A stretch of DNA of 64,000 bases from contig NZ_SUKC01000001.1 of the NCBI RefSeq assembly GCF_005047635.1, positions 248,001-312,000 on the forward strand, given 5' to 3'. The number at the start of each line of letters is the position of its first letter. The first letter of the stretch is position 1. The translations under genes were made by a program, and so were the position numbers. The notes below the pieces were generated by a model. That model saw only the letters and a list, made by a program, of their open reading frames with translations, was not told the origin of the DNA and did not search any database. This document shows, piece by piece, positions 10,447 through 54,484 of this stretch. This DNA is from Arthrobacter sp. CAU 1506. GTDB taxonomy: Bacteria > Actinomycetota > Actinomycetes > Actinomycetales > Micrococcaceae.

Positions 10447-10573
10447 CGCGCATCCGTTGACAGGGCCCGCAAACAGGAGCATGTTAGGTGGATGGCCAGC
10501 GCCAATGCCGCCGACCCTAGCTGATTGCGGGTCCGGCCCGGATGCGCTGGCCGAATGGGGGGACGAAGTAGAG

Positions 10574-12604: not shown

Positions 12605-12630
12605 CGGAGTTGGACCGGCGAGGGGGCCGT

Positions 12631-36335: not shown

Positions 36336-39300
36336 TCAGTTGCTCGCTTTCACCGTCAGGTCATCGAACGAAGCGAACACCGGTGTGTTGGTCGCGGAGC
36401 CGGAGGCGTAGACCCCCAGCCCAACGGCTCCCGGCACCTGCAGTTCCGGCGCCGTATCCGTGACGGACACTTGCCAGTCCGCGGGCTCCTCCGTCCCGGC
36501 CGGCCATAGCTTGGCCCGAACGGTGGTCGGCGAGGTGCCCGTGACTTCCAGGCGCAGCTGCAGTTGCTGTCCGGCTTGATAGGTCAGCCCAGCAACTGTG
36601 GCCTGCCGCAACGTGGTCTCCGTGGAGCCGACGGCCCGCACGGCCTGCAGTGTCACCGCCCCGTTGGATGCCACCCTGGCCGTGGCCATGTACTGCCCGG
36701 TGGTGCCGACCTGCCGCCCGACGACATCTACATAAATTCCGCCGCCGGTGGCCGGCTTATCCAATGAGAACCGCACGTTGGTGTCCGTGCCGGTCGCCGA
36801 GACTGCATTCAGTGAAGAGCCCGGCCCGTGCCCCGGGGCGTTCATCCGCATCCGTCCGGCCCCATCGGCGACGGTGAAGTGCGTGGACGATCCGCGCAGG
36901 GTCCATGCCCCTCCGGTGTCGGCACTCCCCCAGCCGGAGGCCAAGGTCCGTCCGAAGGCGTCCGCCGCGATGTTGGTCGCGGGCGGCGGCCCGGCATCGA
37001 CGGTGACCTCTTGGCTGCTGCTCCGCGCCTCGCCGTCGTCGTCGGTCACGGTGAGTTTCACCGTGTAGGTGCCGGCCGTCGCGTAGGTGTGCGACGCCGT
37101 CGCGCCACTGGCCGTCGCGCCGTCGCCGAACTCCCACGCGTAACTGGCGATGGTGCCGTCCGGATCCGAGGACCCGGACCCGTCCACAGCCACGCCAAGG
37201 CCATTGGTCGTGGCGGTGAAGGAGGCTGTCGGAGCCGCGTTGGATGGCGTCCCCGTGGTGCCGGCTGTGAAGTGGTTCTGCACCTGCGCGGCGCTGAGCA
37301 CTGCCGGGTAGATGGCTACTTCGTCGATATCGCCGGCAAAGTAGGCGCTGGTCGGCCGCGGGCTCCACCGGCTCAGGCTGTCTCCGCCGATCCTCCAGTA
37401 GCCCAGGACTTCCTGGCCCTTGGTCACGTCCGCCCGCTGGGCCACCACCTGCCCGTCGACGAACAGTTGCATGCCGTTCGCGCCAAGCGTGGTCACGGCA
37501 TGATGCCACTTGCCGTCGTTGTAGCTGCCGGTGCTGTTGACCGTCTGCCGCGAACCGTTCTGGATGACGCCGAAGTACAACTGGCCGGTGTTGGCCATGT
37601 ACAGGTGACGGTCCATCAGGTCCGAGTTGATGGTGGTCGAGTTGGCATAGCCGATCAGCTTCCCGCCTCGGGTGGTGGTAGTGCGGAACCACATTTCGGT
37701 GCTGAACGTGTTCGCCGGCTTCACCCGGGAGGTTGTAGAGGCAAACCCTGTTGACGCTCCATTGAAGGTTCCGGCAGCGTCCGCATCGCCAGCCACCGCT
37801 CCGGCAGTGCCCAGGGTCACTCCGGCGTTCAGCCGCAGGTCGTCCTTGCCCGACTGGTCGATGCCCACGGCACCCGATGTTTCGCCGAACCTCCAGTAGT
37901 TGGCTGGCTGGTCGGCCTTGATTGTGGCTGCGTAGGCGCTGGCCGCCGGATCCTCCGCCGCTGCGGTGACCGTGACCGTGTTGCCGCGGACCTCCACACC
38001 GGTGGGATCAGTGGCGATGATGCGGTAAGAGTACTGCCGTCCGGGCACCAGCCCGGTGTCCAGGAAGGTCATGCCCGGCCGGTCCCAGAACGTTGTGGAA
38101 GCGCTCGTGGTGTAGACCGGACTGGCAAGGTTGCCGTCACGGATCACCTTGTAGCTCAGCTTCTTATTGTCCATGTCCCAGTTGGCCTGCCAGCGGACGC
38201 GGACAGTCCCCTTCTTCGGGGAGCTGAGCGTGGGGACGAAATTGGCCCCGCTGACTTCCGGTCCCCGTAGGTTCGGTGCATTCTGGCGCACGGTATAGCG
38301 CACCAGTCCCTGCTGGGCCACGCCGTTCACCCTGGTGAACTCGCCGCCCATCACCACGTACTGGTCATTACCGGTGACTGACCACGGACCCTGGAACTGT
38401 CCGGTGAAAGTACCCGAGTTCATGTCCGGGAACCAGTTCTGCAGCTCCGGCCGCGGCAGGCCTTCGAAGTTGGTGTAGTCGTACAGCTCCCGCGTGATTG
38501 TGCCGCCCACAGCCTTGCTGAACGACATACCGCGATGCCATTCCCAATCCACTTCCTGCGGAAAGGCGCCAACATTGGCACAGTGGTGCGGGTGCCCGGC
38601 CAGATAGATCAGATCGCGCTGACCCGCGTAAACCGAGTAGGTGTCACCGTGGCAGTCGTTGACCCATTCGGTTCCCAGGTCCGACCATCTGATGGAGACC
38701 ACGCCCTCCAGTGTGCTGATGCGGCCGAAGGTGTAGCCGCTGGCGTAGAAGTGGGTTCCGTCCGAGGTCAGGCTGGTGATTGAGCCGTTGTCGCTGCCGT
38801 TGCGGATGTAGGCGCTGGCTGGCAGCGGGAACTGGGTTCCGGTTGCCGTGTCCAGTACGCCGAGCCCGTAGCCGGGCCGGTCCGATCCGTTCAGGCTGGT
38901 GAACGCGCCGCCGACGGCGATCTTGGTGTTGTCCGCAGACAGGGCCAGCCCGTTGACCTGGCCGCCCGCTGCCTGGGGTGTCCAGTTCAGCAGCGCCGCG
39001 TCCGACGCCCGAACAGCCGCCAGCTTGCCGCGCGCCACGCTCCCCACAAAGTTGAAGTCGCCGCCGAAATAGACGGTGTTGTTCGTGGCCACGATGCCGT
39101 GGACGGACGAGGAGGCCTGCGGTTGGAAGCCCTGGATCAACGCACCCGTCGACGGGTTCAGTGCCACGATCCGCGAGACCGGGGTGGTCCCGTTGTACTG
39201 TGTGAAATCCCCGCCCACGTACAGCCGCGATCCGTCCGGTGAGGCCGCGAGGGTGAGCACCTGGGCGTTGAAACGCGGGGCAAATGAACCGATCAGCGCC

Positions 39301-39614
39301 CCTGTGGTGAGGTTGTAGGCCATGATGTTCGACCTGGCCACCTCGTTGGTTCCAGCCGCTGAACCCGCCGGCCGGGCGGACGTGAACTTCCCGCCGACAT
39401 ACACCGTGTTGCCGATGATCACCTGGGACCAGACGACGCCGTTGATCTGCGCCGTCGGCAGCCGGTCGGCAGTGACGGTGGCCGGAGTCAGCGGATCCGC
39501 TGGGTTCTCCGGCAGTGAGTCCGCGGTCGCGGACGGAACACCCACGATGGCTATGGAGGCTGCCAATGCTGCTGAGGATAGGAAGACGGCGCTCCTGCGC
39601 CAGCGTGTATGCAT
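36336..39614 (-). CDS. Giant secreted propeller-FN3-LamG-PKD surface protein, first copy
   Basis: A 1092-residue exported protein. After a signal peptide (MHTRWRRS ... PSATA), residues about 45-450 form a beta-propeller-like region of repeats such as LYVGGDFTQYNGTTPVSRIVALNPSTGAL (in parts; delta-60 type). An FN3-like domain follows (about 465-555), then a LamG/concanavalin-like domain (about 560-785), one PKD domain (about 790-872, YAWEFGDGATASG), and a C-terminal sandwich domain (about 880-1092). There is no LPXTG or membrane anchor. It is a paralogue of the 1655-residue protein at 46098-51065, sharing LPTxQINGVVWS and TGTSPTxxRxKxW motifs. The ATG at 39614 follows the stop of the LVPED-domain gene by two bases. 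Adhesin or glycan-binding roles are likely; no enzyme site is visible. Confidence 0.9.
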   Translation of the reverse strand: MHTRWRRSAVFLSSAALAASIAIVGVPSATADSLPENPADPLTPATVTADRLPTAQINGVVWSQVIIGNTVYVGGKFTSARPAGSAAGTNEVARSNIMAYNLTTGALIGSFAPRFNAQVLTLAASPDGSRLYVGGDFTQYNGTTPVSRIVALNPSTGALIQGFQPQASSSVHGIVATNNTVYFGGDFNFVGSVARGKLAAVRASDAALLNWTPQAAGGQVNGLALSADNTKIAVGGAFTSLNGSDRPGYGLGVLDTATGTQFPLPASAYIRNGSDNGSITSLTSDGTHFYASGYTFGRISTLEGVVSIRWSDLGTEWVNDCHGDTYSVYAGQRDLIYLAGHPHHCANVGAFPQEVDWEWHRGMSFSKAVGGTITRELYDYTNFEGLPRPELQNWFPDMNSGTFTGQFQGPWSVTGNDQYVVMGGEFTRVNGVAQQGLVRYTVRQNAPNLRGPEVSGANFVPTLSSPKKGTVRVRWQANWDMDNKKLSYKVIRDGNLASPVYTTSASTTFWDRPGMTFLDTGLVPGRQYSYRIIATDPTGVEVRGNTVTVTAAAEDPAASAYAATIKADQPANYWRFGETSGAVGIDQSGKDDLRLNAGVTLGTAGAVAGDADAAGTFNGASTGFASTTSRVKPANTFSTEMWFRTTTTRGGKLIGYANSTTINSDLMDRHLYMANTGQLYFGVIQNGSRQTVNSTGSYNDGKWHHAVTTLGANGMQLFVDGQVVAQRADVTKGQEVLGYWRIGGDSLSRWSPRPTSAYFAGDIDEVAIYPAVLSAAQVQNHFTAGTTGTPSNAAPTASFTATTNGLGVAVDGSGSSDPDGTIASYAWEFGDGATASGATASHTYATAGTYTVKLTVTDDDGEARSSSQEVTVDAGPPPATNIAADAFGRTLASGWGSADTGGAWTLRGSSTHFTVADGAGRMRMNAPGHGPGSSLNAVSATGTDTNVRFSLDKPATGGGIYVDVVGRQVGTTGQYMATARVASNGAVTLQAVRAVGSTETTLRQATVAGLTYQAGQQLQLRLEVTGTSPTTVRAKLWPAGTEEPADWQVSVTDTAPELQVPGAVGLGVYASGSATNTPVFASFDDLTVKASN

Positions 39615-39616
39615 AG

Positions 39617-40456
39617 CTATCCTGCCTTTCTTGGAGCTGCGCCTTCGAACGCAACCACAGACTCGGACGCAGCGTAGTTCAGGTAAATCCGCACCTGACC
39701 CCGCTGGTCCTCGGGTACTAGGAAAACAAAGGTGCCGGAGGCCCTCTTGCCCGCCGCGACTTCCAGCGGGAAGAGCTTGGTGCCGGAACCGTCAAGCCGG
39801 ATGGCGGGTAGCTTTTGCGCGCCTGCCTCCACGGTGATCTCGGCGGTGTCCAGTTTCAGTTCTTGGTCCGAGGTGTTCCGTACTTCCACCACAAAACGGA
39901 TGGCCGGCCCGGCGATCTGCCCAATGCCTTCCGCCTTGGCTTCGATGGCCTCGATCTTGGAGATCGTGGCGACGCCGCCCGCGACATCGGCGGTCTCCTC
40001 CAGTTCGACGGCCGGAGCAACGGGCTTCGGTGTGGCAGCGCGATCGGCGTCCTTGGCCACGGCCAGCGAGCCGGAGGGTGAGTTATCGACGGATCCGTCC
40101 CCGGATTCCTTTGCCGCTTCACTGGGCTTCGTTTTGGCCTGGTCGGTCTTCTCCTCCTCGGATTTTTTATCGGACTTCTCCGCATCGTCTTCGGAGGGCG
40201 TCACGGTCTCGCCCGTCTGACCGGTCTTTCCGGAAGCTGCCTCCTGGCCCGCCGCGGCGGAAGCCACCGCGCCGTCCGAAGGGGGCGCCGTCGTCGTTCC
40301 CGCGCCGGTCCAGGCGGACCAGGCCGCGGCGACGGCCACCGCCGCTCCCGCGACGCCGACCAGAGCGGCCGCAATCCAGCGCTGTTTGCGCCGTCCGCGC
40401 TCCGCGTTGCCGGATTCGGGCATGCCGGCCTCGGTTTCGTCGCTGCGTTCAGGCAT
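39617..40456 (-). CDS. Membrane-anchored exported protein with LVPED domain, first copy
   Basis: A 279-residue protein with a short cytoplasmic basic tail, one membrane helix (about residues 30-50), a long Ser/Glu/Lys/Thr-rich linker (about 60-150), and a C-terminal beta-sandwich-like domain (about 160-270). The domain reads IRFVVEVRNTS, then a repeat of hydrophobic strands, GTFVFLVPEDQ and VRIYLNY, like DUF4352-type immunoglobulin folds. A homologous domain is found in the lipoprotein at 52332-52985 (VRFTVTVRNGS, GTYAFLVPEDA, VLYLDLN). Both genes lie in modules that end in a giant propeller protein. ATG 40456 has GGAGG eight bases upstream and overlaps the end of the CDP-alcohol phosphotransferase gene. 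Function unknown. Confidence 0.82.
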   Translation of the reverse strand: MPERSDETEAGMPESGNAERGRRKQRWIAAALVGVAGAAVAVAAAWSAWTGAGTTTAPPSDGAVASAAAGQEAASGKTGQTGETVTPSEDDAEKSDKKSEEEKTDQAKTKPSEAAKESGDGSVDNSPSGSLAVAKDADRAATPKPVAPAVELEETADVAGGVATISKIEAIEAKAEGIGQIAGPAIRFVVEVRNTSDQELKLDTAEITVEAGAQKLPAIRLDGSGTKLFPLEVAAGKRASGTFVFLVPEDQRGQVRIYLNYAASESVVAFEGAAPRKAG

Positions 40457-41270
40457 TCCGTCCACCTCCGTCGGCAGAGGGGACCGCCGGATCCAGACGG
40501 CCCAGCTCGCGGAACCACTTCACGCCGGCCAACATGAGGTAGGCCAGGTTCGCTGCGAAGAACAGCGTGTAGAGCCACATGAACAGCACGGGTGCGCCCA
40601 CGAAGAGGAACACAAAGCAGAAGATTCCGTAGTCTGTCGGCAACAGGGCCAGCGACTTCAGTCTGGACCCGCTGCGCGGTGTGGCGGCGGTGCCGGACTT
40701 CAACAAATGCGTCTTCCGGAGCTGTTCGGTGAGGATCATCGTGAAGAAACCCACCCCGTCCACCAAGCAGTAGCCGATCGGGATCAGCAGCCAGGCCGGA
40801 TCCTCCAACCCGAACGTGCGGTAAGCACAGACCAGGGCAGCAAGATGCACGCTGGAGTTCTTCAGGCTGTCCAGCACATGGTCCAGCCACTCGCCGCTGA
40901 GCGAACCCCCTCCGCGCAACCGCGCCACTTGCCCGTCCGCGGAGTCAAACGCATAGCCAACGGCCAGCCCGGCCCACACCACCAGTCCGGCCCAGACCAC
41001 GGGCCCCGCCGGGCCGTCTGCCCCGCCGTTCGTCGGCGTGAAGGCCAGGAAGGCGATGGCGGACAGGGTGAACAGCGCGCTGATCGCGCTGACCATGTTC
41101 GGTGTCAGGTCGGCCCGGTAGGCTGCAGCGGCGAGCAACCTGCCGGCCCGGCGGTTGACCAGCACCGAATAGGCCGGGGCTCCTGGGGCCACCGTTTTCT
41201 GCGCCTTGGCCAGGATCCGGACCGTCTCCAGGTAGCCCGGCCGCTCCCGTCCCAGCAACTGGCGGGTCAT
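40449..41270 (-). CDS. CDP-alcohol phosphatidyltransferase family membrane enzyme
   Basis: A 273-residue membrane enzyme that would transfer a phospho-alcohol from a CDP-alcohol to an acceptor. The full family motif is present with exact spacing: D109, D112-G113, A116-R117, then eight residues to G126, D130 and D134. About six hydrophobic segments surround it. It overlaps the glycosyltransferase gene upstream by four bases. The TagD-like cytidylyltransferase two genes upstream could supply the CDP-linked donor (for example CDP-glycerol or a related polyol), so this pair may build a phosphodiester-containing glycan or glycolipid rather than a standard phospholipid. Inositol- or glycerol-phosphate synthases share the motif, so the substrate remains open. 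Confidence 0.9.
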   Translation of the reverse strand: MTRQLLGRERPGYLETVRILAKAQKTVAPGAPAYSVLVNRRAGRLLAAAAYRADLTPNMVSAISALFTLSAIAFLAFTPTNGGADGPAGPVVWAGLVVWAGLAVGYAFDSADGQVARLRGGGSLSGEWLDHVLDSLKNSSVHLAALVCAYRTFGLEDPAWLLIPIGYCLVDGVGFFTMILTEQLRKTHLLKSGTAATPRSGSRLKSLALLPTDYGIFCFVFLFVGAPVLFMWLYTLFFAANLAYLMLAGVKWFRELGRLDPAVPSADGGGRNA

Positions 41271-42457
41271 GCCACACCGGCCGGGGTCCGGTCAGCGGCG
41301 GAGGGACGACGGCGGCCACCGGACTGCCGCACCCTGCGTGCGTGGAGATCCCGGCAGAGCTGCTCATAACCGTCGGCGACCACGTCCCAGTCGTATTGTG
41401 CGGCGCGCTGCTGCCCCAGCAGGCCCCGGGTCTTGGCGGCCTCCGGACTCGCTTCGGCTTCTGAAGCCAGGGCGGCTGCCTCCGCAACCGTGGAAAAGTA
41501 GTTGCCGGTTTCGGCGAGCACCTCGCGGTTGAAGTTCACGTCGAAGGCGTTGGTGGGGGCCGCCGCGCCGATGGCCCGCAGCAACGAGGGATTGGTGCCG
41601 CCCACGGAGTGCCCGTGCCAGTAGACCAGTGCGTTGGCATAGAGCTGGTCCAGCAACTCCTGGTCCCACACCCCGCCCAGGAACCTGACCCGCTCGTCTG
41701 CCCGGTCCATGACCCGGCGCGTGTACTCGTCGCCATAGGGGCTGCCGCCGACCACCACCAAGGGCAACCGTGCTTCACTGGCAACATAGCCTTCCACGAT
41801 CAAGTGGACGTGGTTCTCCGGCTCAAAGCGGGCCACCACCAGGTGATAGCGGCCCCGTTCCAGCCCGAGTTCGGCTAGCCGCTCCATCCGTCCCGGGGCA
41901 ATGAGGGGCGCGCCGTAGGTGATCAGCCGGGTGGCGGCACCGAATTGGTCGCTGTAGTAATCCTGGATGCCGGCGGCGTCTGCGATCAGGGCGTCCGAGC
42001 AACGCACCGCCATGGATTCAGCCAGCCGGTAATATTTCCGCCCGACCGGCCCCCACTTGCCCCGCTTCCACTCCAGCCCGTCCACGTGCGTGGCCACTGG
42101 AATTCGAGCGGCACGCAGCAGCGGCAGCCACGGGGCGTTCGCTGCGTTGAACACCACGGCGGCGTCTACGCGGTTCGCCGCCAGATGAACGGCTGACAGC
42201 CCGGAATGACTCAGCGTCTCCAGGCTGCGGCGGCGCAGCGCGGGAAGGTACACGAGCCGCATGCCGGCGTACTCGCGCAGTGTGGCGTCGGCTCCGGTGG
42301 TGTTCCGACAGTAGACCACCACTTCATGGCCGCGGGCAGCCAGCCGCCGGCCGACTTCCTCCACACAGGTCTCGAATCCGCCGTAGCGCGCAGGTACTCC
42401 CCTCGTTCCCATCAGCGCGATGCGCAACGGCCTTCGGTCTTCAGGTGATTTTGACAT
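41267..42457 (-). CDS. Glycosyltransferase with DUF1972 N-terminal domain
   Basis: A 396-residue GT4 enzyme. The N-terminal DUF1972 region shows IALMGTRGVPARYGGFETCVEEVGRRL (in parts), typical of rhamnosyl- or glucosyltransferases of surface polysaccharides, with HVDGLEWKRGKWG and the C-terminal donor site HGHSVGGTNPSLLRAIGAAAPTNAFD in parts. ATG 42457 is preceded by GGGGA. The gene overlaps the CDP-alcohol phosphotransferase gene by four bases. With dTDP-rhamnose made nearby, rhamnosyl transfer is a fair guess. Confidence 0.9.
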   Translation of the reverse strand: MSKSPEDRRPLRIALMGTRGVPARYGGFETCVEEVGRRLAARGHEVVVYCRNTTGADATLREYAGMRLVYLPALRRRSLETLSHSGLSAVHLAANRVDAAVVFNAANAPWLPLLRAARIPVATHVDGLEWKRGKWGPVGRKYYRLAESMAVRCSDALIADAAGIQDYYSDQFGAATRLITYGAPLIAPGRMERLAELGLERGRYHLVVARFEPENHVHLIVEGYVASEARLPLVVVGGSPYGDEYTRRVMDRADERVRFLGGVWDQELLDQLYANALVYWHGHSVGGTNPSLLRAIGAAAPTNAFDVNFNREVLAETGNYFSTVAEAAALASEAEASPEAAKTRGLLGQQRAAQYDWDVVADGYEQLCRDLHARRVRQSGGRRRPSAADRTPAGVA

Positions 42458-42523
42458 ATCCCCATCCCCAGCATGGTTGTGTCTGTGTATGGTGCGGTTA
42501 CTTGGCCGCAACCCGGCGGTCGG

Positions 42524-42985
42524 CTACTCATTCACCGCCGTGCCGGACCTGCCCCGGGACGACGGTGTGCCGTCGAGGGTGGCCAGCGCCTGGCGCAGCG
42601 CTGTGCTCGAGGTGTGGACGGTGTACGGGAAATAGACCACTGAGACGCCAACAGTGGCGAAATCACGCTCCAGCCGGCGCCCCTTCTCGGTGTCCTTCCA
42701 GTCGTCGCCCTTGAAGAAGACGTCGAAACCGACCTCCGCCCAGGTCTGCAGCCGGTCCGGCGAAACCTCGGCCACGGCCCGGTCAACGAAGGTGATGTGG
42801 CGGACGATTTCCAAGCGTTCCTGGAGCGGCACCACCGGATAACGGCCCTTGGTCGCGTAGCAGATCTCGTCGGACACCGTACCGGCAATCAGGTAGTCGC
42901 ACCGTGAGCGTGCTTGGCGAAGGATATTCAGATGGCCAACATGGAACAGATCGAATGCTCCTGCCGCGTAGCCAACTACAGTCAT
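42524..42985 (-). CDS. TagD-like cytidylyltransferase
   Basis: A 153-residue nucleotidyltransferase of the glycerol-3-phosphate/ethanolamine-phosphate cytidylyltransferase family. The HxGH signature is H15-V-G-H18 in GAFDLFHVGHLNIL, followed by ERLEIVRHITFVD, FFKGDDWKDTEKG (the GDDW block of TagD), and the C-terminal YTVHTSSTALR (the SSTxLR-type motif that binds phosphate). The start ATG 42985 has GGGGGA six bases upstream; ATG 42991 touches the binding site. It begins the second module of the cluster and probably makes a CDP-polyol donor for the CDP-alcohol phosphotransferase. Confidence 0.9.
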   Translation of the reverse strand: MTVVGYAAGAFDLFHVGHLNILRQARSRCDYLIAGTVSDEICYATKGRYPVVPLQERLEIVRHITFVDRAVAEVSPDRLQTWAEVGFDVFFKGDDWKDTEKGRRLERDFATVGVSVVYFPYTVHTSSTALRQALATLDGTPSSRGRSGTAVNE

Positions 42986-43330
42986 GGTCATTCCCCCAGA
43001 TGGATCACACATGCATTGCTCAGCGGCGCGGCAACTACCGAATTCAGGGATCGTTTGGCCGCTCCGCTGCCCCAAGCCACAGCCTAGGAAAAATCAGCTG
43101 AGGGCACATGAGTGAGTGGTACGTAAGTCAACCGGACCCATTACTCGCAGCAGGTCGCGCAGTACTGATAGTGACCCGGCATGTACTCACAGCAGGCGGG
43201 CGCTGCCCTGCACATTGTGGAAGATCGGCCGGGTCGGAATGGCCTGCCTCTGGTGGCCTCCCGTCCGAGGCCTCAAGGCCTGGGTCTCAAAAGCCGGGGT
43301 TTCAGGGCCGAGGCCTCAAAGGCCGGGGCC
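42986..43330. other. 345-base gap with promoter region and direct repeats
   Basis: This gap separates the Wzy-like gene from the TagD-like gene; both read left. It should hold the promoter of the second module. A 13-base direct repeat TACTC[G/A]CAGCAGG occurs at 43142-43154 and 43184-43196, spaced 42 bases start to start, four helical turns apart. The left end of the 14-15 base repeat array described separately lies at 43267. No gene or certain -10 box is seen. Confidence 0.45.
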
Positions 43331-43338
43331 TCAGAACC
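43267..43338. repeat. Degenerate 14-15 base tandem repeats at the 3' end of the polymerase gene
   Basis: Five consecutive units on the + strand: GAGGCCTCAAGGCC, TGGGTCTCAAAAGCC, GGGGTTTCAGGGCC, GAGGCCTCAAAGGCC and GGGGCCTCAGAACC. The consensus is GNGGYCTCAAAGGCC. The last unit contains the stop codon of the Wzy-like gene (TGA, 43331-43333 on the - strand). The units carry small internal palindromes (GGCC, CTCAAAG), so a transcript through them could fold. No spacer of CRISPR type is present. Confidence 0.75.
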
Positions 43339-44566
43339 GGGATGGTGACGTGGCGGGGTATTCCTTCGGACCCGGGAAAGCGGAGCCGGCCGCTGCACCC
43401 GGCGGGCTGCCTGCGCTGGCCTTTTCCAGCAGCACGGACAAGGTGAAGAAAACCACGAAGTCTACGCTGGCATCAACCAGTCCGTTCTCGGTCACGCTGC
43501 GGAACAGGATGAACAGCAGCGCCCCGTTGGTGAACGTGCCGAGGTGTGGCGTGCGCAGGCTGTCCCAGCAGGTGAGCACCACCCACACGGCCAGCAGCGC
43601 AGTTCCGACCAGCCCGGCCTGGGCCAGCGCGGAGATCCAGCTGGAGTCGAAAACCTGCTCATCCCAGTATTGGCCGGCCACCGCAATCTGCTTCACCGAG
43701 AGCCCGCTGCCCAGCCACCTTTGCCAGGTATGGAAGGGGATCTCCAGCACCGCTTCCCAGCTGATGGTGCGGGAATTGAGTGTGACCAGCGACGAGCTGT
43801 CCCCCCTGGTCACGATGTTGGCCAGGGTAGGCGTGTACGCGATGATTGCGACGGCGGTGGGCACCGCGATGAGCACCATGGCGGCGACGGCGATCGGTGG
43901 CCTGCGCACCTGCAGCAGCACCACAAGCATCGCTGCGACCAAAGCGAACAGTGCCGTCCTGGATCCGGTGGCCAAAACCAGGCCCGAAAGCCCGGCGAAA
44001 ACAGCCACGAGTTTGCCCGAGCCGCGCCCGTGGACGATCTCGTGCAGCACGCCCAGGGCGGGAAGGCCGCACAGCGAGGCAATGTCGTTGGGCGACAACG
44101 GCGGGATGCCTCCGCCCAGCCTTCCCCCGGAGAGCATCAGCCCGAGGCCGGTGATGGCGCTGAATGCTCCCACCACCGCCATGGCCGCCAGCAGTGTTTT
44201 CACCGCCAACCGGGCGGGAAACGAGAGCAGCAGCATGATCACGGTAGCGGCCAGCAGCACCACGCGCAGCGCCAGTACCGTGGAAGGCGCCGTGGTGCCC
44301 TGAGCGTAGGCGCCGATCGATGATACCGCCACGATTAACAGCAACAGGCCCAGGGAGCGTCCGCCCACTGGTTGCCGCACCGGGGTACGGATGAGCACAA
44401 CCACGGCTGCCAGCAGGGCGACGCACTGGATCATTGCCTTGATCACCACAACCGGATCGGCGCCTCCGCTGTAGATGCTGCCCTGACGCCAACGCACCAG
44501 GCTGACGACCACGAGCAGCCAGATCAAAAACGGGACAACTGCCCGCTTGACGCCGGTTTCAGGCAT
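43331..44566 (-). CDS. O-antigen ligase/polymerase (Wzy-like) membrane protein
   Basis: A 411-residue polytopic membrane protein with about ten to twelve hydrophobic helices and one larger extracytoplasmic loop (about residues 250-325, with LNSRTISWEAVLEIPFHTWQRWLGSGL in parts, where RTxxW and WLGSG are typical of the Wzy_C/O-antigen ligase group). The preceding helix LATGSRTALFALVAAML carries the conserved GSRT. It should polymerise or ligate lipid-linked repeat units outside the membrane. It overlaps the chain-length gene by eight bases. The C-terminus (AGSPPGAAAGSAFPGPKEY) is polar, and the stop codon lies within a repeat array. Confidence 0.87.
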   Translation of the reverse strand: MPETGVKRAVVPFLIWLLVVVSLVRWRQGSIYSGGADPVVVIKAMIQCVALLAAVVVLIRTPVRQPVGGRSLGLLLLIVAVSSIGAYAQGTTAPSTVLALRVVLLAATVIMLLLSFPARLAVKTLLAAMAVVGAFSAITGLGLMLSGGRLGGGIPPLSPNDIASLCGLPALGVLHEIVHGRGSGKLVAVFAGLSGLVLATGSRTALFALVAAMLVVLLQVRRPPIAVAAMVLIAVPTAVAIIAYTPTLANIVTRGDSSSLVTLNSRTISWEAVLEIPFHTWQRWLGSGLSVKQIAVAGQYWDEQVFDSSWISALAQAGLVGTALLAVWVVLTCWDSLRTPHLGTFTNGALLFILFRSVTENGLVDASVDFVVFFTLSVLLEKASAGSPPGAAAGSAFPGPKEYPATSPSRF

Positions 44567-45941: not shown

Positions 45942-45986
45942 TGCTCCCACCTTTCCAGTGCCCCAACCGGAGGTGTACACAACATA

Positions 45987-46014
45987 GCACCCGCGGCACA
46001 CCGGCGGCGGGTGC
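45987..46014 (-). terminator. Hairpin in the gap before the chain-length gene
   Basis: GCACCCGC (45987-45994) pairs with GCGGGTGC (46007-46014), 12-base loop. Read on the - strand it lies after the giant protein gene and 46 bases before the chain-length start. It could be a terminator or an attenuating leader. Confidence 0.5.
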
Positions 46015-46048
46015 GTTTCCGCACCGTTACCTTCCTCCTTAGTCCCGT

Positions 46049-46079
46049 CCGGCCGGTCGCGCCATCGACGACCGGCCGG
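46049..46079 (-). terminator. Hairpin terminator after the giant PKD gene
   Basis: CCGGCCGGTCG (46049-46059) is perfectly complementary to CGACCGGCCGG (46069-46079), nine-base loop. It lies 19 bases past the giant gene stop on the - strand. Confidence 0.7.
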
Positions 46080-46097
46080 CGAGTGTGTTCGTTGGTA

Positions 46098-49000: not shown

Positions 49001-51065
49001 CATAGCCCAGCCAGGTTCCAAACCACAGCCGGCCGGAATTATCCATCCAGACGTGGCGGTCATAGCTGCCCGAGTCACCGGTGCGCGTATTGCCATAGCC
49101 CGCGATCTTGCCGCCCCTGGTGGACGTGGTCTGGAACCAGGTCTCCAGCGAGAAGGTATCCGGTGCCGGGGCGAAGTTCCGGGTGGCGATCGACGCCGTG
49201 CCGGCACCGCTGAAGCCTGCTGCGGTGTCGCCGGGCATCGCCCCTTCGACGGGGCGGGTGACCCCGTCGCCGGCATCGCCGTCGTTGAACCCGGCATGGT
49301 CGAAGGCGACTGTGCCGGAGGTTTCATTCAGCGGATAGTAGGTGGATGCCCCGTCCGCCTTGATGACGTCGCCGTAAGCGTTCGGCGCCGTGGCGGCTAC
49401 CGTCACCGGGGCGGACCGCGGCCCGATGTACTCATTGCCGGCGGGATCCTTGACCCTGATTCGATAAGTGTGTGTGGCCCCCGGCGTCCGCCCCGTGTCG
49501 ATGAAACCGATGGACTTTTTCTTCCACCAGATGGAGGGTTCGTTCAGGGTCGCGATGGCCGTGAGGCTGTTGTCCCGCAGGACTTCGTAGGTCAGCGTTG
49601 CGTCGTCGTAGTCCCAGGTGGTGGGCCAGGCGACGCGGACAGATCCGGCCGAGAGCGAAACGGTCGACGGCTTGAGGTCGGCGGTGTACTCGGGCCGGAT
49701 CTTGTTCGGTGCGACGGTGCGGGAAGCAAAGACGGCCAGCCCCTGCTGCGCGACGCCGTTCACCGTGGTGAACTCTCCGCCGGCCACCAGATAGGTGTCG
49801 TTGTTGGCCAGCGCCCACCCGCCTTGGTATTGGCCGGTGAAGAAGCCGGTGTTGAGTGCCGGATACCAGTGCAGCAGCGTGGGAACAGGCTGGCCGGAGT
49901 ATGTACTGTTGCTGCCCGGCGGCGCTTGGTCCGTTCCGGTAGCAAAGGTGGTCTCCGCGAGCGCCCGCTTCCAGACCTGCGGATCCTCCTCCGGGAACTC
50001 GCCCAGCGAAGAACAGTCATGCGCGTGCGAGACGCTGTACATGACCTGGTCCATCACCGCGATGTCTGAGGTGGAGCCGTAGCAGTTGTCCATCCAGATC
50101 AGGTCGCCGGTCGCGAAGTCGGCGGCGAACCGGCCGTCGAACCAGTGCCCGCCCATTCCGTTGGCCCCGGCGTAGACAACCCCGTCCTTTTCGATCATCT
50201 GGGTTACCCACGAGGTGTCGACGCCTCGGGTTTGCGGGATCGGAGTGCTGCTCCAGGGCAGCGATGCACCAGTGATTCCGTTGACGGCCCCGATGCCGAT
50301 TTTGCGCTCGCCATTGAGATTCTGGAACCGGCCTCCAATAACGACCCGGCTGTTGTCGGCCGAGGCGATGACGCCGTGCACGATGCTGTCCGCGGCTGGA
50401 GCCCACGGCAGGAGCGCGCCGTTGGATCGATTGAGGGCAGCGACATTCTGTCGGGGCTGGCCTCCCGCGCTGCCGAAGGAGCCGCCGATGTAGACCGTGC
50501 TCCCGGTGACGGAGATGGTCTCCACCTGGCCGCCGACGCTGGTGCCGAAGCTTTGCAGAGCCCCTGTGCCGAGGTCAAATGTTGCGATCTTGCTGCGCGG
50601 CTGGCCGCCGACCGCGCTGAAGTCCCCGCCGACGAAAATCTGCGTCTTGTCCGGGCTGATTTCCACCTCTTTGCCCTGGGCATTCAGGTTCGGATTCCAC
50701 GGCAGGATTTTCCCGGTGCTGATCTCAAACGCCATGGCGTTATTCCGGAGGACTTCGCCTGCGCCGCCGGCGGCAACCCCGGACGGCCGGGCCCGGGTAA
50801 AGCTGCCGACGGCGTAGGCGGTGTTCCCGTTCACCGCGGTGCTCCAGACGACGCCGTTGATTTGAGGGGTGGGTAAGACGTCCGCGCTCACCGTCTGCGG
50901 CAGCACCGTGCCTTCCTGCGTTGAGTCCGCAGCGTGCGCCGGTAATGCGGCAAACAGGCTGGCCAGCATGGCGCCAGCGACAAGGAGCACCTGGCTGCGC
51001 CGGATACGTCCCCGACTGGCGGAGGCGCCGGGGTAAACATCGACGTGCCGTTTAGATTCAGACAT
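46098..51065 (-). CDS. Giant secreted propeller-FN3-LamG-PKD surface protein, second copy
   Basis: A 1655-residue exported protein, the largest in the window. A signal peptide (hydrophobic core about residues 25-44, ending PAHA-AD) is followed by a propeller-like repeat region (about 50-455), an FN3-like domain (about 460-560), two LamG-like domains (about 565-780 and 800-1018), five PKD domains in tandem (about 1021-1436, each near 83 residues and each with a YxWDFGDG core), and a C-terminal sandwich domain (about 1437-1655). It is clearly related to the 1092-residue protein and differs mainly by an extra LamG and four extra PKD domains. No sortase or membrane anchor is seen. Its start overlaps the flippase gene by eight bases. 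It is probably an adhesin or matrix protein bound to the glycan. Confidence 0.9.
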   Translation of the reverse strand: MSESKRHVDVYPGASASRGRIRRSQVLLVAGAMLASLFAALPAHAADSTQEGTVLPQTVSADVLPTPQINGVVWSTAVNGNTAYAVGSFTRARPSGVAAGGAGEVLRNNAMAFEISTGKILPWNPNLNAQGKEVEISPDKTQIFVGGDFSAVGGQPRSKIATFDLGTGALQSFGTSVGGQVETISVTGSTVYIGGSFGSAGGQPRQNVAALNRSNGALLPWAPAADSIVHGVIASADNSRVVIGGRFQNLNGERKIGIGAVNGITGASLPWSSTPIPQTRGVDTSWVTQMIEKDGVVYAGANGMGGHWFDGRFAADFATGDLIWMDNCYGSTSDIAVMDQVMYSVSHAHDCSSLGEFPEEDPQVWKRALAETTFATGTDQAPPGSNSTYSGQPVPTLLHWYPALNTGFFTGQYQGGWALANNDTYLVAGGEFTTVNGVAQQGLAVFASRTVAPNKIRPEYTADLKPSTVSLSAGSVRVAWPTTWDYDDATLTYEVLRDNSLTAIATLNEPSIWWKKKSIGFIDTGRTPGATHTYRIRVKDPAGNEYIGPRSAPVTVAATAPNAYGDVIKADGASTYYPLNETSGTVAFDHAGFNDGDAGDGVTRPVEGAMPGDTAAGFSGAGTASIATRNFAPAPDTFSLETWFQTTSTRGGKIAGYGNTRTGDSGSYDRHVWMDNSGRLWFGTWLGYAATVNSSKSYNDGQWHQLTATLGPQGMVLYVDGVRVADRSDVTSGQKYGGYWRIGGDNLNGWPSQPSSSRFTGNLDDVAIYPTVLDRLTVANHYRASGRTPDIAPVPTDGYGAAVYADDPSLYWRLEDASGPTAADTSLYGNPARVAGGVTVGVPGVISGPGGKAFAFDGASGMAAASSAVNNPRVYSAEAWFKTGTVRGGKIIGFGNSNTGLSNSYDRHVYMRDDGKLTFGTYTGAMNTITTALPYNDDKWHHVVATQSGAGMKLYVDGMLTGSHPQTAAEPYTGYWRIGGDRVWDGASSGYFAGTIDEAAVYSTSLTLEQVQAHYAFGGTLNKAPVADFTSVVDGKNVVFDARDSSDADGRIVAYSWDFGDGTTGEGAGIQHLYNEVGTFTVTLTVKDDGGATASKQAEVTTVRPNAAPTAALTSTSTGLRVSFDATGSADSDGTIAGYAWDFGDGSTGTGVDPVHRYAAGGEYQVTLTVTDNDGASAAATVQLVVANAEPSAVFSFSTDGLDAAFDAGGSDDPDGGVSGYAWDFGDGSTGSGKTVSHRYAQAGTYEAVLTVTDDLGARSTASQSVTVNVPEGPGAVFSKEVTGRTIRLDASGSGSPNGTVTGYAWDFGDGERAAGATVSHAFAADGTYTVTLVVTGSNGGTSSYSEEITVANAAPVAVYQSTADGLNVAFDAAGSSDPDGTVESYAWDFGDGSQGTGATVEHQYGASGDYEVTLTVTDNAGAEATVTGTVSVEGSQGPLTYAQDSFGRNATGGWGQADQGGAWQRLGSAANLSVTDGQGKLRMGSPGAGPRVTLPGVEASDTEIAVQLGNDKAATGGGVYNHIVVREVPDVGRYEAAVRFRASGQVAVSLYRVLNGVETFIANETVISGLTIQPGDLLNARVQATGTSPTQIRFKIWGQGSSEPGQWQLTAADSTSALQVPGRIGLGAYLSGSATNAPVHSLWDNLWVGQTRAE

Positions 51066-52335
51066 GCGTACCCGACTGCCTTTCGTAAGGTGACGTTATG
51101 CGGGCTGTCCGCATCTCGTCCCGTGTCAGCGGAACCAACAGAAGAAGTCGAATGGCGACACCGCCGAGGGCTGACCCCAGCGCCGCTGCCCACGGAGCAA
51201 GCGCGAATTCCCCGGTCAGGTGCAAGACCAGAACAACGCAGGCCAGCGACAGGACCGTGTCAGCCAACCGCAGCGCGAAAACACGCTTGGCGCTCCCCTT
51301 GATGGCAGCCAGTGCCCCATAGGGCGAAACGAGGGCCACTGAGGCGGCATAGGCCAGCCAGCCGGCAACTGCGAGGAAGTTGGGGGTCTGGCCAGTTGCC
51401 AGCGGTCCGGCAACGGGCAGCGCCCACAGCGCTAGGGCAGCGCCTGCGGCAGTGATGCCCAGAACCGCGAGGATGGCGCGGTCGGCTTGCGCCAGCAGGG
51501 CTGCAACCGTGGAGGCCCTGTTCTTCGCGTAGGCCGCGAAGAGGTAGGAAGAAATCCCGCCCACGAAAAGCATGGCCGGAGCCGCGTAAATACGCGCAAT
51601 CTCCAGTTGGCCCGTGGCCGCGAGTGAGACCAGAACCAGGAGCGCCAGCCGCGTGGAGGTCATGAGGCCCGGTCGAAGCATCTGCTGGGCCGCTCGCCAC
51701 GATCCGTAGGCTGCCACGGCTTTCCAATCCGCGCCGTTGAGCCGCACCAGGTAGCGGTCCGGCCCCGGGACCAGCAGTGCGCCTACAACTATTCCCGCTG
51801 CCTGGCCGCAGGCGATCGCGGCCAGGTATCCGGTCAGCGACGGCTGCCCGTTCACATTCTGCAGCCACACTATGGACAGTGCGACGCAGGTGACCGACAG
51901 ATCCATCACGACAATCCGCGCGAAGCCGAGATGTGCCATCAGCAGCCGACGGAGCACATCCTCCACAAGGTACGCCGCAACGGCCAGGCCGAGCAGTAGT
52001 GCTTCCATTCCGGACACGAAGCCGATGGTGAGGCTAACGACCGGCACCAGGACACCGCAGGCACAGCTCAACGTCAGCAGCCACAGCTGCATCCCGGCCC
52101 GGAGTCTTCTGCCCGAGCGGTCCAGCACGGTGAGGGAATCTCCAACAAAACCGCTCGTCGTCGCCGCGCAGAGCACCAGCACACCGTAAAGGACGCCCAG
52201 TTTGCCCAGCTCTTCGATCCCCAGAGTCCTGGCCGCAAGGGCCATAATCAGGAAACTGCCGACTGCCTGGCTGCCTTGGGCAGCCAGCGCCCAAAAGGCG
52301 CCGGTCAGGGAAGCAGGTATCCGCCTGGCGATCAT
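51058..52335 (-). CDS. Polysaccharide flippase (Wzx/MOP-like)
   Basis: A 425-residue membrane protein with about twelve helices in two similar halves, as in the MOP exporter superfamily. The N-terminus IPASLTGAFWALAAQGSQAVGSFLIMALAARTLGIEELGKLGVLYG (in parts) matches the usual start of Wzx-like flippases. It should move undecaprenyl-linked repeat units across the membrane. It overlaps the lipoprotein gene upstream by four bases and the giant PKD gene downstream by eight bases, so the four genes of this module are translationally coupled. Confidence 0.9.
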   Translation of the reverse strand: MIARRIPASLTGAFWALAAQGSQAVGSFLIMALAARTLGIEELGKLGVLYGVLVLCAATTSGFVGDSLTVLDRSGRRLRAGMQLWLLTLSCACGVLVPVVSLTIGFVSGMEALLLGLAVAAYLVEDVLRRLLMAHLGFARIVVMDLSVTCVALSIVWLQNVNGQPSLTGYLAAIACGQAAGIVVGALLVPGPDRYLVRLNGADWKAVAAYGSWRAAQQMLRPGLMTSTRLALLVLVSLAATGQLEIARIYAAPAMLFVGGISSYLFAAYAKNRASTVAALLAQADRAILAVLGITAAGAALALWALPVAGPLATGQTPNFLAVAGWLAYAASVALVSPYGALAAIKGSAKRVFALRLADTVLSLACVVLVLHLTGEFALAPWAAALGSALGGVAIRLLLLVPLTRDEMRTARITSPYERQSGTHV

Positions 52336-52985
52336 GGCAGATCACCCGTGAAGGAGGCCGGAGCGTGGGTGCCGTTGAGGTCAAGGTACAGCACCGTTTT
52401 CGGTGCATCCTCAGGGACCAAGAAGGCATACGTTCCTTCCGCCGAAGCGCCGGCAGCCACGGTGCCGACCAGATCCGCTACCTGGACGCCGGTGTAAAGC
52501 GGCGCGGCCGGTATCTGATCGGAGCCGTACAGCAGAGTGGGCACTACTGCCGCTAGATCCAGCGTTTCCGCCGAACCGTTGCGGACCGTGACCGTGAAGC
52601 GCACGTAGCGTGCCCCGGTCATCGCGCCGGCGCCCTGCTCGGTGACCACTCCCTCGCTGAAGTTGCCGGTCGAAACGGTGACCCCGTCGTCGTACTTCGC
52701 TTGGCCGGCGAAACTGGCGGCTGAGACCGCTATTCGTTTCTGCTTCCCGCTCTTCCCGCGGTCAACCATGGCGAACCCGGGCTTCTTGGCCTCGTAGGCA
52801 GGGCCCCCGATGGGGCCCTTAGGCTGCCCTGCTTCCGGACTCGGTCTGGGGTCATCGATTGGCGCCGCCGAAGCGCCTGCGGTTCCCGGCCCCGGGTGCT
52901 GCTCTGCGACGGCGGCTGCATTGGAACACGCGGTCAAGGCGGCGATCAGGGCTGCGGCGGCCATGAGGCGCCCACCTCTTTTCAT
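52332..52985 (-). CDS. Exported LVPED-domain lipoprotein, second copy
   Basis: A 217-residue lipoprotein: the signal ends in LTAC, so C20 would be lipid-modified. After a Pro/Gly/Ala linker (about 25-70) lies a domain of about 130 residues, with VRFTVTVRNGSAETLDL, a run of hydrophobic strands, GTYAFLVPED and VLYLDLNG. It matches the C-terminal domain of the membrane-anchored protein at 39617-40456 along its length. DUF4352-type folds are the nearest known comparison. It starts at an ATG overlapping the sugar transferase stop (ATGA) and ends overlapping the flippase start. Its place between the priming enzyme and flippase suggests a role in assembly or anchoring of the glycan or of the giant protein. 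Confidence 0.84.
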   Translation of the reverse strand: MKRGGRLMAAAALIAALTACSNAAAVAEQHPGPGTAGASAAPIDDPRPSPEAGQPKGPIGGPAYEAKKPGFAMVDRGKSGKQKRIAVSAASFAGQAKYDDGVTVSTGNFSEGVVTEQGAGAMTGARYVRFTVTVRNGSAETLDLAAVVPTLLYGSDQIPAAPLYTGVQVADLVGTVAAGASAEGTYAFLVPEDAPKTVLYLDLNGTHAPASFTGDLP

Positions 52986-54484
52986 CAGTAGGCCCCCACG
53001 GGATTCAGCATGACTTTCGCTGTCCGCCACATGATGATCAGGTCGCCCAAGACCGACCAGTTCTCCACGTAATAGAGGTCCAGTCGGACGCTCTCCTCCC
53101 AGTTCAGGTCAGAGCGTCCGTTGATCTGCCACAGTCCGGTGCAGCCCGGCTTGATGAAGAGGCGCCGGTGGGTATGGGTTTCGTATTTGCTGACTTCATC
53201 GTGCAGAGGCGGGCGCGGACCCACCAGGGACATGTCCCCTCGCAAGACGTTGTATAGCTGCGGCAACTCGTCCAGCGAATACTTCCGGATCCAGCGGCCA
53301 ACCCGGGTGACCCTGGGGTCGTCCCGAAGCTTGAAGAGGACTGAGTTGCCTTCGTTCAAATGCTTGAGTTGTGCAAGTTCGTCTTCTGCGCTGTCCACCA
53401 TCGAGCGCAGCTTGTACATCCGGAAGGTCCGTCCGCCCTTGCCCACTCGCTCTTGGACGAAAAAGCCAGGGCCGCGGCTGTCCAGCTTCACGGCCGCCAC
53501 CAGGATGGCGATGACCGGGGCAAGGATGGTCAGCGCGATGAGTGATCCAACGACGTCGAGACAGCGCTTGATGACGTGCCGGCCACCGGTGAATGACGGC
53601 AGTTCGACATGCATCAACGGCAGGCCTTCAACCGGCCGAACGCGAATGCGCGGTCCGGCCACGTTGGTGAGGGCGGAGGCAACTACCAGTTCGGTGGAGG
53701 TCTTCTCCAGGTCCCAGCTGAGCCGCTGGATGTACCCGTTCCCGCGGTGTAATTGTCCGGCGACTATGACCGCGTCGGCGCCGCTGGCAGCTACGGCGTC
53801 TTGGATCGTATCCAGATTCCCCAGGACAGGCACGGCGTTCTTTCCGACCTGCAGGGCCGGGAACTTCAGCTTTCCTTCCAGCGCCACACCGACGACGTCG
53901 TAGGCGGCACCGGATTTTCGGGCGATTTGCGCCACCACGTAGCCCACGTCGTGGCGGTTCCCCATCACGATGACCTTGGACAGATAGTGCCCGAAGCGGC
54001 TCTGGTAGTTGAGCCAGCGCCGCCAGGACCATCGCCCCGCCAGTAGCAAGATCAGCCCCGCGGGCCAGGTCAGGAAGAAGAATCCGCGCGGGCCGGGAGC
54101 GTCCAGGAACACGTAGCACACAGCCACCAGTCCGAACGTCGCTGCGCTGGCGTCCACGACGCGCTTGTACTCGCCCGCACCGACGCCGATCAGCCTGGGA
54201 TCCCGGGTGCGCATCAGGCTGGTCATCCCGAACCACACCACGGCGATGAATCCCGCAACCGCGGCGGGGCCGAGGACGGCTCGTGACGATTGCTCGCCGG
54301 CCGAATCCAGCCAGATCGTCGAAGCCACCATCGTCGCGGCGATCAGCAAACCATCCGTGAGTCGGAGCATCAGCAGGTAGCGCCGGCGCCACGCAACTCC
54401 GGAATGAACCGCAGCCCTTGTCTGCGGTCGCGGGACGACGGTGCGAAAGCCTAATTCGCGGGTCAAGGTCATAGGACTATGCAC
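52985..54484 (-). CDS. Polyprenyl glycosylphosphotransferase (priming sugar transferase)
   Basis: A 499-residue membrane enzyme that starts repeat-unit synthesis by moving a sugar-1-phosphate to undecaprenyl phosphate. The N-terminal part has about four membrane helices and a Rossmann-like domain (KVIVMGNRHDVGYVVAQI). The C-terminal catalytic domain (about residues 300-499) carries KRCLDVVGSL, YKLRSMVDSAEDE, LDELPQLYNVLRGDMSLVGPRPPL (in parts) and KPGCTGLWQINGRSD, which are the WbaP/WcaJ/CpsE signatures. The start is GTG 54484, with GAGGGAG nine bases upstream; an internal ATG at 54472 is possible. It is the first gene of the long leftward operon and its leader holds a large hairpin. Confidence 0.94.
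   Translation of the reverse strand: MHSPMTLTRELGFRTVVPRPQTRAAVHSGVAWRRRYLLMLRLTDGLLIAATMVASTIWLDSAGEQSSRAVLGPAAVAGFIAVVWFGMTSLMRTRDPRLIGVGAGEYKRVVDASAATFGLVAVCYVFLDAPGPRGFFFLTWPAGLILLLAGRWSWRRWLNYQSRFGHYLSKVIVMGNRHDVGYVVAQIARKSGAAYDVVGVALEGKLKFPALQVGKNAVPVLGNLDTIQDAVAASGADAVIVAGQLHRGNGYIQRLSWDLEKTSTELVVASALTNVAGPRIRVRPVEGLPLMHVELPSFTGGRHVIKRCLDVVGSLIALTILAPVIAILVAAVKLDSRGPGFFVQERVGKGGRTFRMYKLRSMVDSAEDELAQLKHLNEGNSVLFKLRDDPRVTRVGRWIRKYSLDELPQLYNVLRGDMSLVGPRPPLHDEVSKYETHTHRRLFIKPGCTGLWQINGRSDLNWEESVRLDLYYVENWSVLGDLIIMWRTAKVMLNPVGAY

Follow-up and report, generated by a model that had tools for sequence, protein, structure and literature searches.

The window analysed here is a stretch of 64,000 nucleotides from Arthrobacter sp. 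CAU 1506, located on contig 1 (NZ_SUKC01000001.1) of the 4.24 Mb genome. Open reading frames (ORFs) and Pfam and NCBIfam matches delineate one polysaccharide region at ~34–60 kb of the window. Its leftward genes encode, in order, two AAA/LuxR regulators, a priming sugar transferase, a small protein with a C-terminal LVPED domain (LVPED1), a putative flippase and a giant multidomain protein (giant 1), followed by Wzz-like, Wzy-like and TagD-like proteins, a GT4 glycosyltransferase, a CDP-alcohol phosphotransferase (CDPOH), a second LVPED protein (LVPED2) and a second giant (giant 2), beyond which a β-helix protein is encoded on the opposite strand (Table 1). The original prediction, made from the letters of the window alone, had split these genes into two modules, each coupling an LVPED protein to a giant. 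The coordinates of all four ORFs hold and both gene sets are present, but Wzz-like and Wzy-like genes lie between them, so that the locus is a single run of genes. The nearest named relative encountered is Arthrobacter hankyongi (84% identity in the giant 2 propeller), where the two giants are ~18 kb apart and separated by other genes. The LVPED proteins are likely to be dedicated membrane-tethered docking partners of the secreted giant propeller proteins within the polysaccharide system.

The LVPED domains of the two window proteins align with 38% identity over 92 residues (E 8e-13), in line with the prediction, but the alignment does not extend over the whole proteins. LVPED1 carries a lipobox (Cys 20) and LVPED2 a membrane helix that begins at residue 27; the stop codon of LVPED2 is separated from the start of giant 2 by 2 bases. 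A public-genome scan confirmed 204 places, and the 80 best of these comprise 77 distinct giant loci, which belong to Arthrobacter, Cellulomonas, Cryobacterium, Nocardioides, Subtercola, Leifsonia and other genera. An LVPED protein is present in 67 of them, and all 67 consist of a hydrophobic N-terminal segment (best 18-residue mean 1.6–3.8), a low-complexity linker of 34–129 residues, mostly rich in P, T, S and A, and a C-terminal domain, which is followed by no more than six residues in 66 of the 67. Two have a lipobox (in locus L091, found by script, and in L031, by eye), so the other 65 look like single membrane helices. The C-terminal domain is probably Ig-like and resembles DUF4352 (PF11611): four of seven LVPED domains match this family weakly (best E 2.4e-5), and the scores listed lie below its gathering cut-off of 25.9 bits (20.7 for LVPED2, 23.5 for LVPED1 and 22.7 for the protein of L063). 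LVPED has no significant match among PDB sequences (best E 0.2, YcdA, 4r4g), and a structure search gave no identified fold. LVPED2 has no match among plasmids, and no natural LVPED–giant fusion occurs among the ORFs of the 77 loci.

The two giants are homologous, as had been proposed (41% identity over 843 residues and 47% over the last 301). Pfam finds the LamG domains and the predicted one versus five PKD domains; the propeller is recognised by the Rax2 family in giant 2 (31.4 bits, cut-off 28.8) and falls just under the cut-off in giant 1 (27.8), while the predicted FN3 part is represented by a weak fn3 match, listed for giant 2 only. All 118 giants examined have a hydrophobic core at the N-terminus, which an AxA cleavage-like motif follows in 115; a few of these ORFs are truncated at contig ends or seem frameshifted. 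None of the 118 has a convincing lipobox (there is one chance match within the hydrophobic core, in L018) or a C-terminal sorting helix (the top 19-residue hydropathy in the last 90 residues is 1.6). LPXTG or PEP-CTERM sorting signals are likewise absent from the giants, apart from two loose LPxTG-like strings without a helix; this search covered the giants and not sortase or exosortase genes. Conservation among the giants is highest in the propeller, and the numbers of LamG and PKD domains vary. A giant of 506 residues that adjoins an LVPED in L014 is a propeller only, and L072, L069 and L041 encode propeller–FN3 giants of 541–582 residues, with no LVPED nearby in L069 and L041. The conserved propeller, the propeller-only giant and the variable LamG and PKD parts make the propeller the part that LVPED is expected to recognise. 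An eight-row propeller alignment shows no variation in two cysteines and an H-x-H-x-C motif at residues 321–345 of giant 2; they could mark a disulphide, a metal site or a catalytic site.

Profiles of the propeller of the giants and of the LVPED domain were run against genomes of the same family, order and phylum, with cut-offs placed after score gaps had been seen. In the order sample, the gap for the giants lies between 5.2e-121 and 1.4e-80, and the profile sets LVPEDs apart from weaker relatives by a gap between 2.3e-13 and 1.5e-9. Neither partner was found widespread alone: full-length propellers (E ≤ 1.1e-125) and LVPED (E ≤ 2.5e-17) occur in the same 17 of 120 family genomes, and full-length-propeller giants and LVPED in the same 39 of 248 order genomes, i.e. 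co-occurrence is complete (17/17 and 39/39). The corresponding Fisher p values, 5e-21 and 2e-46, are overstated, given related genomes, overlapping samples and post hoc cut-offs. Plain chance pairing is nevertheless rejected by the completeness of this co-occurrence in both samples. LVPED lies upstream of the giant on the same strand in 19/19 family and 40/45 order cases, and within 5 kb of it in 19/19 and 43/45. In the named loci, 64 of the 67 LVPEDs are encoded directly upstream on the strand of the giant; the remaining three (Leifsonia) are 7.7–8.7 kb away on the opposite strand. Among 246 genomes of the phylum sample, LVPED (E up to 1e-5) is confined to the genome of the window, and six others have propeller matches (E up to 1e-40) that are partial and weaker.

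The trees of the two partners co-vary. In 86 LVPED–giant pairs (88 pairs at most 5 kb apart on one strand, before removal of duplicates), the LVPED and propeller trees correlate with r 0.82, and the highest of 2000 permutations reaches 0.30. The correlation persists after correction for other genes of the same loci (partial r 0.74 given GT4, 0.55 given CDPOH and 0.84 given the priming transferase, PGT, in 38, 38 and 32 loci; permutation maxima 0.34, 0.45 and 0.36), with the smallest margin for CDPOH. The two copies in the window had been taken as a sign of duplicated use. There are indeed two copies, but they are two old sub-types common to several genera, not a recent duplication. Relatives of the first set (regulator, priming transferase, LVPED, flippase-size spacer and giant) and of the second (TagD, GT4, CDPOH, LVPED and giant) both recur in other genera; the LVPED–giant gap is ~1.4 kb in 8 of 19 family LVPEDs, and in L110 and L094 (A. 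hankyongi) it contains a homologue of the putative flippase. Among the 86 pairs, nine giants are nearer to giant 1 than to giant 2 and ten LVPEDs are nearer to LVPED1, nine being shared.

LVPED and the giant share a reading frame in 24 of 64 loci. In one such tandem, L029 of Cellulomonas, reading the stop codon as glycine gives a chain of 620 residues composed of the LVPED domain, a junk linker and the propeller. AlphaFold2 predicts this chain with a mean pLDDT of 88.4 and a pTM of 0.86 (104 aligned rows, 24 paired). Simple arithmetic puts the expected pTM at ~0.65–0.66 if LVPED were misplaced by 20–28 Å and at 0.82–0.84 if it were placed within 2–3 Å, so the LVPED domain is firmly docked in the model. 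A read-through chain from the C-terminal sandwich of one giant to the propeller of the giant that follows it served as the control (locus L065; 708 residues, alignment of 104 rows with 10 of them paired). Per-block pLDDT is mostly 90–98 in both domains and pTM is 0.63, which we read as a predicted sandwich and propeller that are not docked. The control alignment excludes 19 loci, mostly near-duplicates, and takes 45 of 49 sandwich and 50 of 84 propeller rows, with one further sandwich row omitted. The comparison thus consists of one positive pair and one control, whose query propellers differ; the control also has a longer disordered linker and fewer paired rows, and docking is read from pTM. 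The L029 giant (L029:6126-9779) reads out of frame at its C-terminus and may be frameshifted or misassembled; the propeller used in the model is intact.

By sequence, the propeller finds nothing significant in the PDB (best E 0.047). The L029 model, compared by structure, matches propellers of the WD40 type (best E 1.7e-8), and generic WD40-type propellers are also the top matches of the fused models. Legume-lectin-like and alginate-lyase matches at ranks 42 and 44 of a fused model probably reflect the C-terminal sandwich. Two Leptospira phage records (KF114877.1, 66569-67444, and KF114876.1, 47594-48202), annotated as hypothetical, contain distant and weak relatives of the propeller (27–30% identity). 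The only strong propeller of the phage collection is in MT835675.1, an unverified bacteriophage record from human faeces that is outside the search sets; in its locus (L134, MT835675.1:1787-26986), the genes for CDPOH, an LVPED lipoprotein and a giant follow one another. It reads as a bacterial polysaccharide locus and is probably mislabelled as phage. A phage origin of the system is rejected.

The third gene that accompanies the pair is CDPOH. The window protein passes PF01066 (32.6 bits, gathering cut-off 22). Enzymes of this class carry the motif DxxDGxxAR(x8)GxxxDxxxD, in which D109, D112, G113, R117, G126, D130 and D134 are invariant and A116 nearly so across 24 sequences of these loci. 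A profile seeded from the same loci matches 58 of 248 order genomes at E ≤ 1e-25. The 38 best (≤3.0e-79) are all among the 39 genomes with LVPED and a giant, G174 alone of the 39 being without, and the next 20 (1.1e-78 to 5.6e-53) have no strong LVPED; this division does not fall in a score gap (38th genome 3.0e-79, 39th 1.1e-78).

A second family of small proteins is found at E ≤ 7.2e-25 in 12 of those 20 genomes and in no other of the 248, with weaker matches in 17 other genomes (best 1.2e-12). Seven of the 12 provided the seeds of its profile and five are new. By eye, each of the seven seeds starts with either a lipobox or a membrane helix, continues with a linker and finishes with a domain of ~110 residues that has a Cys at or near its end. 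In the L131 seed, this domain spans L131:4426-4755. The family has no confident Pfam assignment and no detectable similarity to LVPED. It goes with a second class of giants, in which an N-terminal fibrinogen-C-like domain (a weak Pfam match in two giants) is combined with a propeller. In a search of 80 chosen genomes rather than all 248, such giants occur in 16 (four of which gave profile seeds), namely in all 12 genomes of the second family and in G288, G223, G184 and G154, which have no strong match to it. The small protein is encoded directly upstream of the fibrinogen-C-like giant, on the same strand, in 10 of the 12 genomes; it is ~2 kb away on the other strand in G302, and in G171 it is on another short contig, where it adjoins a different propeller giant (L124). 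The other eight of the 20 genomes have distant propellers within 5 kb of CDPOH, six of them within 0.6 kb. Five propeller giants lie directly beside CDPOH with no small anchor seen between (L114:6501-9625, L115:6108-9280, L116:7264-10436, L117:6432-11277 and L119:7077-12645). Since CDPOH and propeller giants also go together without either anchor, this combination seems to be the older constant, to which tethers were added in two ways.

The remaining genes of the polysaccharide region are listed in Table 1. The TagD-like, GT4, CDPOH and priming transferase assignments agree with Pfam and NCBIfam. The flippase label is not supported in this way: a Pfam scan of the ORF gave no significant match, and the protein is a putative flippase by position and look. 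Homologues of the regulator adjoining the first gene set also adjoin the priming transferase in L100, L102, L103 and L110. In the 77 giant loci, crude gene calling, which probably gives lower bounds, found Wzz-like genes in 41, GT4 in 30, TagD-like genes in 28, priming transferases in 25, CDPOH in 25 and β-helix proteins in 21. Left of the locus, near a UDP-sugar dehydrogenase, the window contains a LytR-CpsA-Psr domain (a possible glycan-to-wall ligase) and an M1 peptidase-like protein (11161-13635 and 10457-12604); since these ORFs overlap, one of the starts is likely to be misplaced.

Table 1. Features of the polysaccharide region (window positions) and seeds of the second small-protein family (locus positions)
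Feature	Position	Strand	Architecture or basis
β-helix protein, right-handed	34322..36124	+	PF13229; relatives in 21/77 giant loci
Giant 2, 1092 aa	36336..39614	-	Signal peptide, propeller, FN3-like stretch, 1 LamG, 1 PKD, C-terminal sandwich
Propeller of giant 2	38277..39515	-	Alignment; fold from models of relatives
LVPED2	39617..40456	-	N-terminal membrane helix, low-complexity linker, C-terminal LVPED domain
LVPED domain of LVPED2 (last 140 residues), presumed docking domain	39620..40039	-	Alignment; docking predicted on relative only
CDP-alcohol phosphotransferase, clade accompanying LVPED and giant	40449..41270	-	PF01066, E 1.3e-7; motif; co-occurrence
GT4 glycosyltransferase	41267..42511	-	Pfam; resembles rhamnosyltransferase Cps2T, under NCBIfam cut-off
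TagD-like cytidylyltransferase	42524..43075	-	PF01467; TIGR01518 under cut-off
Wzy-like polymerase/ligase	43331..44566	-	PF04932, E 3.7e-8
Wzz-like chain-length protein	44559..46001	-	PF02706; TIGR01006 under cut-off
Giant 1, 1655 aa	46098..51065	-	Propeller, 2 LamG, 5 PKD, C-terminal sandwich
Propeller of giant 1	49716..50945	-	Alignment
Putative flippase between LVPED1 and giant 1	51058..52335	-	Position only; homologue in same place in L094, L110
LVPED1	52332..52985	-	Lipoprotein, linker, C-terminal LVPED domain
Priming polyprenyl-phosphate sugar transferase	52985..54484	-	PF02397; TIGR03025 above cut-off
AAA and LuxR-type regulator adjoining first gene set	55029..57701	-	PF00196, PF13191
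Second AAA and LuxR-type regulator	57698..60343	-	PF00196, PF13191
Second-family seeds	L131:4027-4758, L122:11800-12570, L126:2777-3511, L127:4170-5081, L128:6244-7026, L130:9185-10168, L129:1534-2187

The original prediction had cast the small protein as a dedicated partner of the giant, and complete co-occurrence, gene order, the anatomy of both partners, the co-variation of their trees and the predicted docking of one pair with its control, all computed here, agree with it. Export, folding or attachment to the glycan had been suggested as its role; the anatomy favours a fourth one, tethering to the membrane through the propeller. A lipid or a membrane helix would keep LVPED in the membrane, the linker would extend through the wall, and the C-terminal domain would bind the N-terminal propeller of the giant. 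The giant, which has a signal peptide and no anchor, would thereby be retained at the surface, its LamG and PKD domains and C-terminal sandwich facing outward, presumably toward the polysaccharide made by the same locus, which they may bind, while the TagD-like enzyme and CDPOH would add a phospho-alcohol to the glycan or its lipid carrier. Docking would then take place in cells, with retention as its purpose.

Several observations weigh against tethered docking. The docking was predicted on the L029 pair from Cellulomonas rather than on the pairs of the window, and it was read from pTM. Weak matches to the LVPED profile without full-length giants occur in 13 of 248 order genomes (E 1.5e-9 to 7.7e-6) and in 8 of 120 family genomes; we read these as other DUF4352-like proteins. 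Giants outnumber LVPEDs in the order sample (68 versus 45), 51 of the 68 having an LVPED within 5 kb and 17 having none. Ten of the 77 named loci have no LVPED within 10 kb (L041, L046, L047, L048, L056, L069, L071, L078, L080 and L084), although L078 and L080 are short contigs, and the genomes of L046, L047, L048, L071 and L084 have one in another fetched locus. The eight CDPOH genomes described above have propeller giants and neither type of anchor, so some such giants do without one.

LVPED could instead be a membrane-bound factor for export, folding or quality control, which would bind the propeller transiently and leave the giant released or held by the glycan. The anatomy of LVPED and the predicted docking suit this explanation equally, giants can outnumber LVPEDs in a genome as if one factor served several, and on the whole transient help in export fits the data nearly as well as tethering does. 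We nevertheless consider it unlikely, because the propeller giants of LVPED-less genomes are presumably exported without LVPED and a linker of up to 129 residues suits reach, not catalysis. LVPED and the giant could also be parts of glycan assembly, with the giant glycosylated with, or lipid-anchored through, the product of CDPOH and LVPED positioning it. CDPOH accompanies LVPED and the giant in 38 of 39 genomes, its second clade adjoins giants that lack LVPED, and its trees track both LVPED (r 0.56) and the propeller (0.61). However, no C-terminal processing signal is seen on the giants, and the LVPED–propeller link survives correction for CDPOH, as given above, which makes this arrangement improbable. 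Polysaccharide loci do move as blocks, and CDPOH is likewise co-inherited, so the genes might merely travel together with no physical link between LVPED and the giant. This we regard as very improbable: the GT4 and PGT trees from these loci hardly follow that of LVPED (r -0.01 and 0.33), while the propeller tree follows it well (0.71 and 0.85 in the same subsets), and docking is predicted for the pair and not for the control.

If LVPED does tether the giants, a broader picture can be sketched tentatively, with the chances somewhat against it in its entirety: a sortase-independent coat system of actinobacteria, consisting of a CDPOH clade, a giant propeller protein and an interchangeable tethered adaptor matched to the class of the giant. 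The adaptors, LVPED for giants with a full-length propeller and the ~110-residue Cys-ending domain for fibrinogen-C-like giants, would be docking receptors that build a layer of protein and polysaccharide. To our knowledge, how large coat proteins or capsule-like polysaccharides are retained on actinobacterial cells, which have no outer membrane, is mostly an open question. The locus offers a concrete, testable pair, a domain of ~140 residues and a propeller of ~410 residues, both predicted with high confidence on a relative; it links a clade of CDP-alcohol enzymes to this pair and suggests two dissimilar tethers for the same job. Tethering would also give a role to the DUF4352-like domains of these loci and to giants that have been recognised only from PKD and LamG domains.

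Dedicated handling of surface proteins is familiar from the PEP-CTERM/exosortase and LPXTG/sortase systems, the former of which also accompanies exopolysaccharide loci. Unlike the proteins handled there, the giants have no C-terminal sorting helix. In agreement with the original prediction, no description of a system of this make-up was found in the open-access literature, the scope of which does not extend to subscription papers or the bioRxiv preprint collection; the part of PMC12419801 consulted is unrelated to it. The nearest functional parallel, which is not one of family membership, is with Bap1 and RbmC of Vibrio cholerae, secreted β-propeller matrix proteins whose propeller, according to the sections of PMC10102183 consulted, binds polysaccharide and not the cell surface. 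Both systems combine a secreted β-propeller with added adhesive modules and go with an exopolysaccharide, but the propeller here is predicted to bind a membrane-tethered protein, and those sections of PMC10102183 describe no LVPED-like partner. Bap1 is not among the 50 structure matches listed for the L029 model, and a Pfam scan, made without a fold search, finds no β-prism, a trait of Bap1 and RbmC, in either giant.

The nearest mechanical parallel, by analogy and again not by family membership, would be the cohesin–dockerin anchoring of cellulosomes, in which large modular proteins, once secreted, are bound non-covalently by a receptor domain that belongs to an anchored protein. The giants and LVPEDs of the window have no Pfam match to cohesin or dockerin at E 0.1. 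A dedicated non-covalent receptor domain on an anchored protein would be common to the two systems, but the partners here are a propeller and a probably Ig-like domain, and the context is the synthesis of a polysaccharide and not its degradation. Dedicated, non-covalent attachment at the surface is thus already known as a kind; the LVPED–giant pair appears to be a hitherto undescribed means of keeping a large coat protein on the cell.

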